The notes beneath the pieces are model-generated. The model was given only the letters and a program-made list of their open reading frames with translations. It was not told where the DNA came from and made no database searches. Positions 68 through 4,173 of a stretch of DNA of 41,713 bases are shown here, one piece after another. Numbering within the stretch: the stretch's first letter is position 1; each line of letters starts with the position of its first letter. Origin of the DNA: a virus; IMG/VR virus record IMGVR_UViG_3300017917_002046, positions 1 to 41,713 of that record; one strand, written 5' to 3'. Both the position numbers and the translations under genes were made by a program.

Positions 68-1072
68 TTATACATTCTTTTTTGTCATCCGTATGTCTGT
101 AGCACAAAGACAATTTTGTTGTGGGCATATGGTGGGTTTAATGATTTTTGGAATAAATTTTTCCTGTAACTTAGAATCATAGATGTTTAATGGGGTATCT
201 AATCCGAAGAGATTCCTTGCTCCACACATGCCTTGTATATCCCCATTTCGTTCTATTCCTAATCTATCTATACCGAGGTTGCATTCCCATCCTTGAAAAT
301 GCTGCCAATCTTTTACTAAAAAATTAAATGTGTCATATTTTACCACATCACCATTATCCAAAATAGCAGAAACGTCAGGTGCAGTATCTTGTATGATTTC
401 CAATTGTTTATAACGATCAATACGATCCTTAGGAGGCATTTTCTTGATTTTTTCAGACATATAATCAATTTGTGTCTGATCAAACGACATTAATTTTCCA
501 TCCAGTAAAACTGGTCTGGTTTTCAATAGCCACGGAGTTGGATGTTCTGTTAGTCTATCGGCAATAGATTCGCATCTATTCCAATTCATAGGATCCATAA
601 GGACGGTTCCATTTATTAATACATCAGGTTCATGATTATATATGTAATCCATTACTTCAATAACATGAGAAGGATCACATCTTTCATTATGAATACTGAT
701 TCCAATGTCATCAAAGTATCTTGAGTATTCTTGCCAAAATCTTAAAGTTCTAGTTCCATTGGTGCTTAATGAAATTTTACAATCCATTCTTTCATTAAAA
801 TGTTCTGCAAACTCTCCTAGATCTGGCCATAGAGTCGGTTCTCCACCTGTTATGTGTATTCTAATATGTTTTTTATTGTGGTGATCTCTGTATATGTTTA
901 CAATATGAGACAGGTTCTTTTTAATTAAATTTAAATCTGTGGGAAATCTATAAAGACCATCATTGCAACCATCAAAACAGTAATGGCATTTATAGTTACA
1001 TGTGGTGCCTACTATAAAGCCTATGTGAAGCCTATCAACTGTGTCATTGTTAATAATTTGTATAGGTTTCAT
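68..1072 (-). CDS. Radical SAM protein with SPASM-like C-terminus (rSAM 1)
   Basis: This is a radical SAM enzyme of unknown substrate, 334 aa. The cluster motif CNYKCHYC places the three [4Fe-4S] ligands at C25, C29 and C32, and a TGGEPT motif (SAM binding) follows near residue 75. The C-terminal third has further cysteines (GWECNLG, GMCG and a final CPQQNCLC) that resemble a SPASM or twitch auxiliary-cluster region. The start ATG overlaps the TGA of the upstream methyltransferase-like gene as ATGA, so the two are translationally coupled. It is the last visible gene of a three-gene minus-strand operon whose first gene is a related rSAM sharing the FQGWxCNxG signature. It is not a convincing QueE, which is shorter and lacks the C-terminal cysteines. 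The fold is certain; the reaction is unknown. Confidence 0.88.
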   Translation of the reverse strand: MKPIQIINNDTVDRLHIGFIVGTTCNYKCHYCFDGCNDGLYRFPTDLNLIKKNLSHIVNIYRDHHNKKHIRIHITGGEPTLWPDLGEFAEHFNERMDCKISLSTNGTRTLRFWQEYSRYFDDIGISIHNERCDPSHVIEVMDYIYNHEPDVLINGTVLMDPMNWNRCESIADRLTEHPTPWLLKTRPVLLDGKLMSFDQTQIDYMSEKIKKMPPKDRIDRYKQLEIIQDTAPDVSAILDNGDVVKYDTFNFLVKDWQHFQGWECNLGIDRLGIERNGDIQGMCGARNLFGLDTPLNIYDSKLQEKFIPKIIKPTICPQQNCLCATDIRMTKKNV

Positions 1073-1662
1073 TTCTTACCGATGATCATAAATCTTTTAT
1101 ATAGAGGAAGTTCTAATTCACCCTTCCATAAGACTTTTATGTTGCTTTGTTGTTCAAATTGATCTAAACTATCAGCTGTTCTAATATGCTCGGGTATGTT
1201 ATAATTATTACTTTGTAATACAAGCAAACTATCTTTAGGAGTATAATTTAACCAACTGTTATATTGTGCCTGTGTAAGATGTTCACAACTTGTATTAATC
1301 ACTATATCAGCACTCATGTGCATAGGCTGACTTATATCTACTATGCTGGCACGGAATCTACCCTGCATCTCCTCTAGCTTGTTCATAGCTTCTGCAATAG
1401 GCTTACAGGTGGGATCAATGTCATAGCTGGCAATATGCGTAATTGGTATATTACTTTGAAACAACATACTAGCTAATACTCCTACCCAACCTGCACATAT
1501 TTCTATGCTAGATGCTAAGTGTATATGTTTGTTTAAATTATCAATTAGCCATTCTTTACTTTTAAGCTGTCCAGACCAAAAGGCATCCATGGTCCGCATA
1601 GGATCTGGACTTTGTCGGATAGCCTGCATCCAATAGTGTAGGTGTTCAGTATCTATTTGCAC
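1069..1662 (-). CDS. SAM-dependent methyltransferase-like protein between two radical SAM genes
   Basis: This 197-aa protein has the outline of a class I (Rossmann) methyltransferase: a hydrophobic strand with a weak motif I (SSIEICAGWVGVLASML), an acidic end of strand 2 (ASYDIDPTC) and a motif IV-like segment (VINTSCEHL). Motif I lacks the usual GxGxG, so SAM binding is inferred. It starts with GTG, inside the last codons of the upstream rSAM gene, and ends in a 4-nt overlap with the downstream rSAM gene. The sandwich position implies that it acts on the same substrate or pathway as the two rSAM enzymes. The specific substrate is unknown. Confidence 0.72.
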   Translation of the reverse strand: MQIDTEHLHYWMQAIRQSPDPMRTMDAFWSGQLKSKEWLIDNLNKHIHLASSIEICAGWVGVLASMLFQSNIPITHIASYDIDPTCKPIAEAMNKLEEMQGRFRASIVDISQPMHMSADIVINTSCEHLTQAQYNSWLNYTPKDSLLVLQSNNYNIPEHIRTADSLDQFEQQSNIKVLWKGELELPLYKRFMIIGKK

Positions 1663-2633
1663 TTTGGTATTTTACTATCTGCCGAGCTTACACAACTAGG
1701 AGTAACGCATATTCTAGGTTTAGATATTAAGTCAAATCCTTCCGTGAGTGTGCCTAATCTGTGATCATGGCAGCTGTATGATCTCTTTACTTCGTTGCCT
1801 CTTATTATAACACTTTGATATCCGCTATTACAGGTCCATCCTTGGAATTGATTGAATCCATAGGCATTGAATCTTTCTGCTTGATCAAATAGGTATTCAT
1901 TATTGTCTGCATCGTATAGTGCTATTTGATAAATTTCTTCGCCTTGTGTTTTTTGCGGAAAGCCAGTCTGCATTATATCAATCATTTCATCAGTGTAACC
2001 ATCAACTACACGACTAGCAGTAGGATCGCTCTGCGGTTTTAGTGTTACACTAATTCCTCTTTTATAGAATCGTTCACAGCGTTCATACAACTCGTAAAAT
2101 TTTTCCGGCACCATAACTTGGTTGATTGTGACATGAACCAGTTCATACATTAATTGTAGACATTTGTCTCCGAATTCCTGTTCCTTGGCGAACTCATCAT
2201 GATAGCTGGCCGTGATACTTCTACGCTGTAACAGCTCTGTGTTCCGGCACCATGTTCCCCACCATTTGCTGCCGGGGCTGAGATTGGTGGTCATGTGTAT
2301 GCTTTGGTATGTGCTTTGTTTTTCATCTAGATGTTTGACCAGGTCTAGGAGATTTTTATAAGCAGTAGGTTCTCCTCCGCTGAAACTCCAATGGAACTCA
2401 GTGAATCCATTTTGTCGGGCTTGACGTTTGATCTCATCGATTGTTTGTTTATAAACTTCTAGACTGGCATAATCAGGATTATCTGACCTAGCATACGGCC
2501 AACAATAACTACAGTTGTAGTTGCAGAACCTACCCAGGATCCAACTCACGGCAAACAAGGGTTTGGTTAACATAGTTCGTTGTCCAAACCGGACTATATG
2601 TTGAAACGGAATTTCTTGAAAGTTTGTAGTCAT
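1653..2633 (-). CDS. Radical SAM protein with SPASM-like C-terminus (rSAM 2)
   Basis: This is the first gene of the minus-strand rSAM operon, 326 aa. The cluster motif CNYNCSYC gives C37, C41 and C44, and FSGGEPT follows near residue 85. The C-terminal part has GWTCNSG, SYSCHDH and a final CVTPSC, a cysteine pattern like that of its downstream paralogue and suggestive of an auxiliary Fe-S cluster. No Shine-Dalgarno lies before the ATG. Instead an ATTAAATA box ends 10 nt upstream of the ATG, so the leader would be only about 5 nt. No precursor-peptide gene is visible next to the operon, so a RiPP role is not supported here. The substrate is unknown. Confidence 0.88.
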   Translation of the reverse strand: MTTNFQEIPFQHIVRFGQRTMLTKPLFAVSWILGRFCNYNCSYCWPYARSDNPDYASLEVYKQTIDEIKRQARQNGFTEFHWSFSGGEPTAYKNLLDLVKHLDEKQSTYQSIHMTTNLSPGSKWWGTWCRNTELLQRRSITASYHDEFAKEQEFGDKCLQLMYELVHVTINQVMVPEKFYELYERCERFYKRGISVTLKPQSDPTASRVVDGYTDEMIDIMQTGFPQKTQGEEIYQIALYDADNNEYLFDQAERFNAYGFNQFQGWTCNSGYQSVIIRGNEVKRSYSCHDHRLGTLTEGFDLISKPRICVTPSCVSSADSKIPKCK

Positions 2634-2696: not shown

Positions 2697-2809
2697 GTGG
2701 TCGTGAGTGGAATAGGCAGACCTCCCGCTAGTCCCATAGGCTAGAGAGGGGACGGGACGATGAGTATAACTCGCAGTCTTTGTAGGTTCGAAACCTACCG
2801 ACCACACCA
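2697..2809 (+). tRNA. Oversized tRNA or tRNA-like RNA (113 nt), encoded CCA; anticodon unresolved
   Basis: The acceptor stem is perfect: GTGGTCG (2697-2703) pairs with CGACCAC (2799-2805), followed by A and an encoded CCA. The T arm is perfect: GTAGG / TTCGAAA loop / CCTAC (2782-2798). The D region AGTGGAATAGGCAGACC resembles class II (tRNA-Leu-type) D arms. A GAGT-ATA-ACTC hairpin (2762-2772) could be the long variable arm. The best anticodon stem is TCCCG (2723-2727) with CGGGA (2753-2757), but it encloses 25 nt instead of 7. That loop itself folds through CTAG / CC-CATA-GG / CTAG. The extra ~18 nt could be an insertion, an intron-like element, or a sign that this is a tRNA mimic or pseudogene. 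I do not assign an amino acid. Confidence 0.7.
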
Positions 2810-2829: not shown

Positions 2830-3027
2830 ATGCCAACAGTAGAACAATTAAAATCACAGTTTGAAGAGTTTCTAGCAGAAGATGCTAAATTTACAGCAGG
2901 CAATGGAGCCGCAGGCACCCGTGCTCGCAAAGCCCTGCAGGAAGTAGCCAAATTAGTCAAGGCTCGCCGAAATGAAATCACCGAAGAAAAGAATGCCCGC
3001 AAAGAAGCCAAAGCAGCAGGCAAGTAA
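2830..3027 (+). CDS. Small basic histone H1/Hc1-like protein
   Basis: A 65-aa, lysine/arginine-rich, mostly helical protein. The central segment GNGAAGTRARKALQEVAK matches the pattern of bacterial and phage Hc1/histone H1-like nucleoproteins (GNKAAGTRARK type), and the tail is KNARKEAKAAGK. A role in binding or compacting DNA is inferred from this family. An AAGGA Shine-Dalgarno precedes the ATG. It is the first protein gene after the tRNA-like gene, and the next gene starts 1 nt after its stop. Its length is close to that of other short phage members. Confidence 0.72.
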   Translation: MPTVEQLKSQFEEFLAEDAKFTAGNGAAGTRARKALQEVAKLVKARRNEITEEKNARKEAKAAGK

Positions 3028-3028
3028 T

Positions 3029-3490
3029 ATGGGCGATCAAGACAACACAGTTGTTCTTGGTACAGGTATTGGCGCTGGCACCGGTTATATATCTGGGGGA
3101 GCCGGCACCGATACCATTACTTTCGATAGTTCTATATGGTCGAATAGCTCAGTGACTATACCAAACGGCGGGTATATTACCAGTACCGGTAGCACCACAG
3201 TTCCATACACTATCACTACCACAGGCACAGGAACTGGCTGGTATCAGAATCCCTCAGTATCCATAGACACAGATGGAATGAAGATCAAAGAGGGCGGTGA
3301 TATTAAAATTGGTGACAAAAGCCTGACCAAAGCCATTGAACAGATCGAAGAACGGCTAGGCATATTACATCCCAATCCTGAACTAGAGGACCGTTGGACA
3401 CAATTAAAAGAACTGCGTCAACAGTATATGGAATTAGAAAAAGACCTTCTTGAAAAAGAAAAGCTGATGAAAATATTAAAGGAATCATAA
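3029..3490 (+). CDS. Putative phage structural protein with C-terminal coiled coil
   Basis: This 153-aa protein has two parts. Residues 1 to about 80 are rich in Gly, Thr and Ser (beta-type, fibre-like). The second half is charged and helical, with IKIGDKSLTKAIEQIEERLG, the segment HPNPELEDRW and a Glu/Lys-rich coiled coil to the end. The IGDKSL...RLGI.PNPELE...W..LK pattern recurs in small conserved proteins of marine T4-like phages and suggests a virion or assembly role, not proven. The ATG at 3029 is preferred over an upstream in-frame start buried in the previous gene. The stop overlaps the ATG of thyX by 1 nt. Confidence 0.65.
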   Translation: MGDQDNTVVLGTGIGAGTGYISGGAGTDTITFDSSIWSNSSVTIPNGGYITSTGSTTVPYTITTTGTGTGWYQNPSVSIDTDGMKIKEGGDIKIGDKSLTKAIEQIEERLGILHPNPELEDRWTQLKELRQQYMELEKDLLEKEKLMKILKES

Positions 3491-4173
3491 TGCATGTTCG
3501 ATTACTCAGTTACAGTCAACCCACACAGGAATTCGCAGATCTGGGCCTCACAGATGCACAGGAACTCATTGCGTATTGCGCCCGTGTCAGCAATCCCTCC
3601 AATCAATTCAACACAGACACAAGCGAGAAACTCATCAGATACTTGGTCAAACACCAACACTGGTCGCCACTCGAAATGGTGTCAGCCTGTATTGAAATCA
3701 CTACCACCCGAGACATTGCACGACAGATCCTTAGACATCGTAGTTTCAGCTTCCAAGAATTCAGTCAGCGATATGCTGACCCTACTAAAGACCTGTCGTT
3801 TGTATTGCGAGAAGCACGAAAGCAAGATCCAAAAAATAGACAAAACTCAATCGCACTTGAACCAACACTCGGGGATGCGTTATTACAAGATGAATGGAGA
3901 GACAAACAACTTGAACTCATCGCATTGGCAAAAGAAGCCTACGAGTGGGCTATCGGTAAAGGCATAGCCAAAGAACAGGCTCGTGCTGTGTTGCCAGAAG
4001 GACTCACAGAAAGTCGCTTGTATATGAACGGTACGCTACGTTCATGGGTTCATTTTATTGAACTGCGTTCAGCGAATGGCACACAGCTAGAACACCAACA
4101 AGTGGCCAGGGCCTGTGCAAAAGTAATCTCAGACATCTTTCCAATGACAGAAAGCCTGGTTGCAAATGGATAA
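3490..4173 (+). CDS. thyX: Flavin-dependent thymidylate synthase ThyX
   Basis: Converts dUMP to dTMP using methylenetetrahydrofolate, FAD and NADPH, supplying thymidylate for phage DNA synthesis. The diagnostic ThyX signature RHRxxSxxxxSxRY is present as RHRSFSFQEFSQRY from about residue 82. The dUMP- and FAD-binding C-terminal segment EQARAVLPEGLTESRLYMNGTLRSW-type region follows, with the conserved run ending in HFIELR. At 227 aa it is normal for the family. Its ATG overlaps the preceding stop, and the following gene starts inside its last codons. No sign of damage. Confidence 0.96.
   Translation: MHVRLLSYSQPTQEFADLGLTDAQELIAYCARVSNPSNQFNTDTSEKLIRYLVKHQHWSPLEMVSACIEITTTRDIARQILRHRSFSFQEFSQRYADPTKDLSFVLREARKQDPKNRQNSIALEPTLGDALLQDEWRDKQLELIALAKEAYEWAIGKGIAKEQARAVLPEGLTESRLYMNGTLRSWVHFIELRSANGTQLEHQQVARACAKVISDIFPMTESLVANG

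Follow-up and report, generated by a model that had tools for sequence, protein, structure and literature searches.

Phages that encode many radical SAM (rSAM) enzymes have been described from several lineages. The Campylobacter phages CP220 and CPt10 each carry 11–12 rSAM genes, with an exchangeable cluster of five rSAM genes and a putative glycine amidinotransferase (PMC2853527). A T4-like environmental phage from TARA is described with 12 rSAM genes (PMC5332604), and pelagimyophages are described with rSAM cassettes in a variable host-recognition region, beside many glycosyltransferases (PMC7029224). Jumbo phages and cyanophages also contain surface-sugar or secondary-metabolite clusters with epimerases, 2OG oxygenases and methyltransferases, for which surface decoration or an antibiotic-like product was proposed (PMC7824862). 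As CP220/CPt10, the TARA phage and the pelagimyophages all carry rSAM clusters, multi-rSAM phage clusters are not new, and the locus analyzed here is a variant of them.

The window, that is, the whole stretch of 41,713 nucleotides analyzed, is a linear 41.7-kb virus fragment (IMGVR_UViG_3300017917_002046) whose sequence is cut at base 1. An earlier note on this DNA had proposed three overlapping minus-strand genes at its start, and the corresponding open reading frames were confirmed. These genes, termed A, B and C in order of transcription, and their surroundings are as follows.

1–67, no strand: end of contig; in relatives the cluster continues, for example in L003 with rSAM3 (SPASM), rSAM4 (NF033640), a 218-aa protein and further C-like rSAM genes.
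68–1072, minus strand: gene C, the second rSAM enzyme, 334 aa.
1069–1662, minus strand: gene B, a predicted class I SAM-methyltransferase-fold protein, 197 aa, GTG start.
1653–2633, minus strand: gene A, an rSAM enzyme, 326 aa.
2697–2809, plus strand: tRNA-like RNA, 113 nt, divergent from A.
2830–3027, plus strand: Hc1 (histone H1-like) gene, Pfam PF07432, 57.9 bits.
3490–4173, plus strand: thyX, Pfam PF02511, 154 bits, in a flanking block of conserved order.

The phage carrying A, B and C is probably a jumbo phage, because the clamp-loader protein of the record has its nearest match (56%) in jumbo phages of the PA5oct type and one relative of the locus lies on a 281-kb record. A freshwater (lake) origin of the phages is suggested by the sample types and by the closest parallels in the literature. 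Deposited phage genomes yielded no close relatives of A, B or C. The GC content of the A–B–C operon is 36.7%, compared to 42.5% in the rest of the window.

The three genes are tightly packed, with an overlap of 4 nt (ATGA) between B and C and of 10 nt between A and B, the latter overlap having precisely this length in 64 loci. All three genes are under strong purifying selection, with dN/dS values of 0.03–0.13 wherever dS was unsaturated. Viral relatives numbered well over 80 each for A and B (for A, about 80% identical, 584 or more) and 21 for C, the nearest relative of C being that of L003 (77%).

Both A and C are rSAM proteins, as had been claimed, with scores of 44.6 and 49 bits, respectively, toward Pfam Radical_SAM (cut-off 29.5). 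The cysteines of the rSAM motif lie at the positions given before, in CNYNCSYC of A (C37/C41/C44) and CNYKCHYC of C (C25/C29/C32); A additionally contains SGGEPT, and the FQGWxCNxG segment said to be common to A and C was found in both. The description of both proteins as SPASM-like was too strong, as neither matches PF13186, the Pfam SPASM model (about seven C-terminal cysteines, two auxiliary clusters). Instead, A has four extra cysteines (C268, C288, C309 and C314), invariant in the alignments of 55 phage and 8 bacterial sequences. This number suggests one auxiliary Fe–S cluster, as in a twitch domain, rather than a full SPASM domain, and judged by its cysteines the C-terminal region of A fits the one-cluster twitch type. 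C has extra cysteines at C264, C283, C316 and C321, among which C283 is not invariant in the alignment. The AlphaFold model of A (pLDDT 82) consists of an rSAM barrel and a C-terminal part, and its top Foldseek matches were EpeE, MoaA, anSME and PqqE. These share the barrel and a C-terminal region with A, at TM scores of 0.4–0.5 and 12–17% identity, values that imply no functional identity.

Clear membership in a known rSAM subgroup with a known substrate, which the earlier note had named as an outcome that would refute its reading, was not observed, as none of the three proteins reaches the cut-off of a named subgroup. Toward NF033640 (N_Twi_rSAM, with the SPASM/twitch domain N-terminal to the rSAM core), A and C scored 32 and 29 bits (cut-off 170); no peptide-maturase model reached its cut-off for either protein, and the MoaA, QueE and NrdG2 models also remained below their curated cut-offs. 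The scores toward prokaryotic viperin (NF038283, cut-off 180) were 38 bits for A and 62 bits for C, in both cases over the rSAM core only. The best structure matches in the profile search with C were again viperins, and for the rSAM cores of both A and C the highest-scoring models were those of the viperin, MoaA, NrdG2 and QueE types. The cluster could accordingly be read as nucleotide, cofactor or nucleic-acid-base chemistry, in which viperin-, MoaA- or QueE-like reactions yield a modified nucleotide, cofactor or DNA base. We regard this as improbable, since the matches cover the rSAM core alone at scores far below the cut-offs (62 versus 180 bits for C and viperin), and no partner genes for base modification were observed adjoining A–B. 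A viperin-, MoaA-, QueE- or NrdG2-like function of A or C was rejected because the alignments are confined to that core and score so low.

B matched no Pfam, NCBIfam or PHROG family, and a PDB profile search gave nothing significant. Its AlphaFold model (pLDDT 94.6) matched many PDB methyltransferases in Foldseek, with a best E-value of about 1e-9 and TM scores of 0.55–0.71. We are confident, on the strength of this model, in assigning B a class I methyltransferase (Rossmann-like) fold, in support of the methyltransferase-like character proposed earlier. Motif I is atypical, also as proposed; in the 47-sequence alignment of the B family it has the unusual but conserved form xGGWxG, and D81 and D83 are invariant. 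SAM binding and methyl transfer are the predicted role of B.

To define the genomic context, about 174 viral loci were gathered by scanning viral contigs for C, A and B; their ORFs were called mechanically and grouped into families with blastp. In these relatives, the genes seen here stand at the start of a cluster of 10–35 kb that contains a further two conserved rSAM families, rSAM3 (Radical_SAM plus SPASM) and rSAM4 (N-terminal SPASM). Gene A is followed by B directly, or by an inserted C-like rSAM or other gene and then B, and rSAM3 and rSAM4 are present in most loci. Unlike A, B and C, rSAM4 is a clear member of the NF033640 subfamily (425 bits, cut-off 170), a model whose name carries no substrate. 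At least 7 kb of sequence downstream of A was available in 70 phage loci. Of these, 67 contain B, 63 rSAM3, 58 rSAM4 and 54 the complete set A+B+rSAM3+rSAM4, the co-occurrence of bait pairs being biased upward because the loci were baited by A, B or C. Synteny among relatives, the absence of which had likewise been named as evidence against the earlier proposal, is widespread.

The gene order in L003 (A, B, C, rSAM3, rSAM4, a 218-aa protein and another rSAM) indicates that the window is cut after the third cluster gene. As the contig ends at base 1 and the relatives continue for tens of kilobases, the operon seen here is incomplete, and the three-gene operon of the earlier note represents the opening section of a large multi-rSAM cluster. 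The extent of that cluster is apparent from 13 relative records with 7–19 rSAM matches each, including 19 in the 281-kb record (L052, 281,658 bases) and 15 in the L131 record (82,851 bases). From A onward over about 33 kb, the 281-kb record contains A, rSAM3, B, a cold-shock/glutathione-peroxidase fusion, an epimerase of the NDP-sugar epimerase/GMD type, a 2OG oxygenase, small families and rSAM4. After rSAM4, more rSAM genes, an SGNH protein and a PP-loop protein follow on the opposite strand, and further on lie a PLP-like protein, an amidinotransferase and a member of the B12-type rSAM family. The amidinotransferase is nearest, over its full length, to the inosamine-phosphate amidinotransferase 1bwd (E = 1.1e-94). 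PLP, 2OG/AspH, PP-loop and SGNH genes are found in some of the phage clusters.

Several features of these clusters were noted in their own right. The phage amidinotransferase nearest to the inosamine-phosphate amidinotransferase of the streptomycin pathway is at L349:13200–14258 (plus strand). The fusion of a cold-shock domain to a glutathione peroxidase domain inside an rSAM cluster was seen at L060:10526–11257 as well as in the 281-kb record. A family of proteins that measure about 230 aa and carry a D(G/A)D motif is common to phage and bacterial rSAM clusters (L022:2257–4698, L020:4885–6483, L214, L213 and L211) and in phages also occurs as repeats inside one protein. It had no significant match in Pfam or the PDB, including a PDB profile search, and on inspection it looked GT-A-like.

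The composition of the cluster varies strongly between phages. This variability, together with the metabolic role suggested for the rSAM genes of the Campylobacter phages (PMC2853527), would be consistent with a general metabolic boost by unrelated auxiliary rSAM genes that share no product. The fixed A/B overlap and the retention of A, B, rSAM3 and rSAM4 together in both phages and bacteria (see below) make such an assortment quite improbable.

The tRNA-like RNA beside the cluster had been put forward as a possible clue to the target of the enzymes. This element combines a 7-bp acceptor stem ending in ACCA, a 5-bp T arm, a D-type arm and a long variable arm with a hairpin that replaces the anticodon arm and lacks a canonical anticodon loop. 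The acceptor and T stems are 100% paired in 42 sequences, with seven pairs changed on both sides; none of 500 shuffles reached the observed values, and no slid version came close. A usual anticodon arm (5-bp arm, 7-nt loop, U33) was found in 0 of 50 distinct elements, and many of the hairpins are capped by GNRA, UUCG or CUUG tetraloops. ARAGORN did not call the element, and Rfam returned only a chance miRNA match.

The RNA is highly conserved and lies beside A in 105 loci, at a median distance of 64 nt and always divergent on the opposite strand, as would suit a cluster that modifies this RNA or an amino acid charged on it. We consider such a target highly improbable, and the proximity does not hold up as a clue. 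An independent scan with the RNA motif placed A beside the RNA in 59 of the 74 loci with room for it and found the RNA without A in the other 15, while several A-bearing phages had no strong match to the RNA model. Bdellovibrionota clusters with A lack the RNA, scoring no higher on the model, the E-values of which are rough, than ordinary tRNAs. Moreover, the RNA and the phage backbone block share the same strand. As the RNA and the cluster separate in both directions, the RNA is probably neither the target of the cluster nor a component of the enzyme pathway. It belongs to the phage backbone. The conserved backbone block that borders the cluster starts with Hc1, and its order is kept in relatives. 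A occurs in at least two phage backbones, in one of which Hc1 is conserved next to the cluster.

A bacterial counterpart emerged when bacterial genomes were scanned once with the alignment of A, a scan the reach of which was limited by the two peptide patterns used. It returned five loci, all in Bdellovibrionota MAGs and about 50% identical, and in three of them A is accompanied by rSAM3 and rSAM4. Among 291 sampled Bdellovibrionota genomes, A was present in 17 and B in 28; every genome with A also has B, compared to 11 of the 274 others (Fisher's exact P = 1.6e-20, uncorrected for kinship of the genomes). As A and B were searched separately here, these counts are free of the bait bias of the phage loci. 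All four core families (A, B, rSAM3 and rSAM4) occur in Bdellovibrionota chromosomes, where A adjoins rSAM3/rSAM4 and often B, which lies within about 3–8 kb of A in several genomes. The conserved overlap, the synteny and this co-occurrence in bacterial genomes support the proposal that the genes are tightly coupled in one pathway. Phage and bacterial A sequences are split by one fully supported branch of the tree, which argues against recent sharing within this sample. A transfer in recent times from one group to the other was considered and none was seen, as the two sets of A lie on opposite sides of that branch.

Several of the bacterial clusters hold GT2 glycosyltransferases (families b6 and b7). 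The ~230-aa DGD-motif family and C-like rSAM genes are also present, and PP-loop, SGNH and AspH-like genes occur in single cases. Members of family b6 (L219:13684–15186 and L222:2137–3642) are GT2 enzymes with an N-terminal stretch bearing a CxxxCxxC-like motif. The association of B with glycosyltransferases extends to genomes that lack A. In six A-negative genomes with B, the regions within 8 kb of B together contain 15 GT2 genes, compared to 0.31 expected from genome-wide counts, and these genes are spread over five of the six genomes.

The GT2 neighborhood of B, which is the firmest pointer, together with the phage epimerase, the amidinotransferase and the lack of a conserved small ORF, favors a carbohydrate or aminocyclitol reading. 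We tentatively propose, at somewhat less than an even chance, that the A/B/C cluster encodes tailoring enzymes of a carbohydrate or aminocyclitol-type pathway, for surface decoration or a small molecule. The substrate, left open earlier among sugar, nucleotide, tRNA and protein, is thereby narrowed, with the genome context favoring carbohydrate-type chemistry over tRNA, DNA and RiPP modification. A sugar cluster would be expected to carry glycosyltransferases and nucleotide-sugar enzymes beside the core; the glycosyltransferase association is strong for B in bacteria, and some phages have the epimerase and the amidinotransferase, but such genes are not universal. Several observations count against the carbohydrate reading. 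The NDP-sugar epimerase and amidinotransferase are found in a minority of phage clusters; the clear GT2 genes come from bacterial clusters, the phage clusters not having been scanned systematically; and the GT2 link concerns B and not A or C directly. In addition, the structures nearest to A include the peptide epimerase EpeE besides MoaA, and 2OG/AspH enzymes occur with peptides too.

These last two observations define the main rival, in which the rSAM/SPASM/twitch enzymes, the methyltransferase and the 2OG oxygenases act on a ribosomal peptide (proteusin-like), a virion protein or a host protein. Many rSAM proteins with SPASM or twitch domains work on peptides, EpeE is the best structural match of A, AspH/2OG, PLP-like and B12-type rSAM genes are present in clusters, and prepilin-like genes lie near some of the bacterial copies. 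We nevertheless judge peptide or protein modification to be unlikely. No conserved precursor peptide was found in the phage clusters, the commonest small same-strand ORF family occurring in 9 of 165 loci, in a search that covered the cluster strand near the loci and would not reach divergent or distant precursors. This result upholds the absence of a precursor claimed for this locus and makes a RiPP whose precursor is encoded close by less likely. The peptide-maturase models, all below cut-off for A and C, point the same way, and GT2, epimerase and amidinotransferase genes would be unexpected beside a peptide pathway. Two clusters of small ORFs upstream of A (9 and 15) were considered as peptides and rejected, as they are the antisense of the Hc1 gene and the tRNA-like gene.

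Under the carbohydrate or aminocyclitol proposal, the enzymes would share one substrate, and the product would be a glycan on the surface of the infected cell or a small compound resembling an aminosugar or aminocyclitol. A, C, rSAM3 and rSAM4 would use SAM-derived radicals to alter unreactive C–H bonds of a building block, by epimerization, dehydrogenation, deoxygenation or cross-linking, and B would transfer a methyl group. The epimerase, amidinotransferase, PLP, 2OG/AspH, SGNH and PP-loop enzymes may vary the decoration from phage to phage, and the phage might benefit, for example, by masking receptors against competing phages. A more far-reaching version, which we hold possible but doubtful, is that A, B, rSAM3 and rSAM4 form the four-enzyme core of an undescribed radical pathway common to freshwater jumbo phages and Bdellovibrionota. 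Its previously unknown glycan or aminocyclitol-type product would be diversified by up to some fifteen further rSAM enzymes.

Among the known systems, the CP220/CPt10 module resembles the present cluster in combining many rSAM genes with an amidinotransferase, and those phages are cultured. The resemblance does not extend far in sequence, as the rSAM protein of the related phage CP21 is only about 21% identical to A, and B and C had no match in the CP220/CPt10 lineage at the cut-offs used. The TARA phage and the pelagimyophages are T4-like aquatic phages with many rSAM genes, set beside A/B/C here by description and not by sequence; the portions of those accounts drawn on here describe no core family, methyltransferase partner or bacterial counterpart. 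The description of the jumbo phage and cyanophage clusters mentions no rSAM enzymes (the word 'radical' occurs 0 times). Multi-rSAM phages have been noted since 2010, and the papers cited here, in the portions drawn on, proposed no conserved core, cellular counterpart or substrate class. A core whose members stay together both in lake phages and in the chromosomes of Bdellovibrionota provides four defined enzymes and a chemical class to look for, so that the puzzle of why lytic phages carry a dozen radical enzymes becomes testable.
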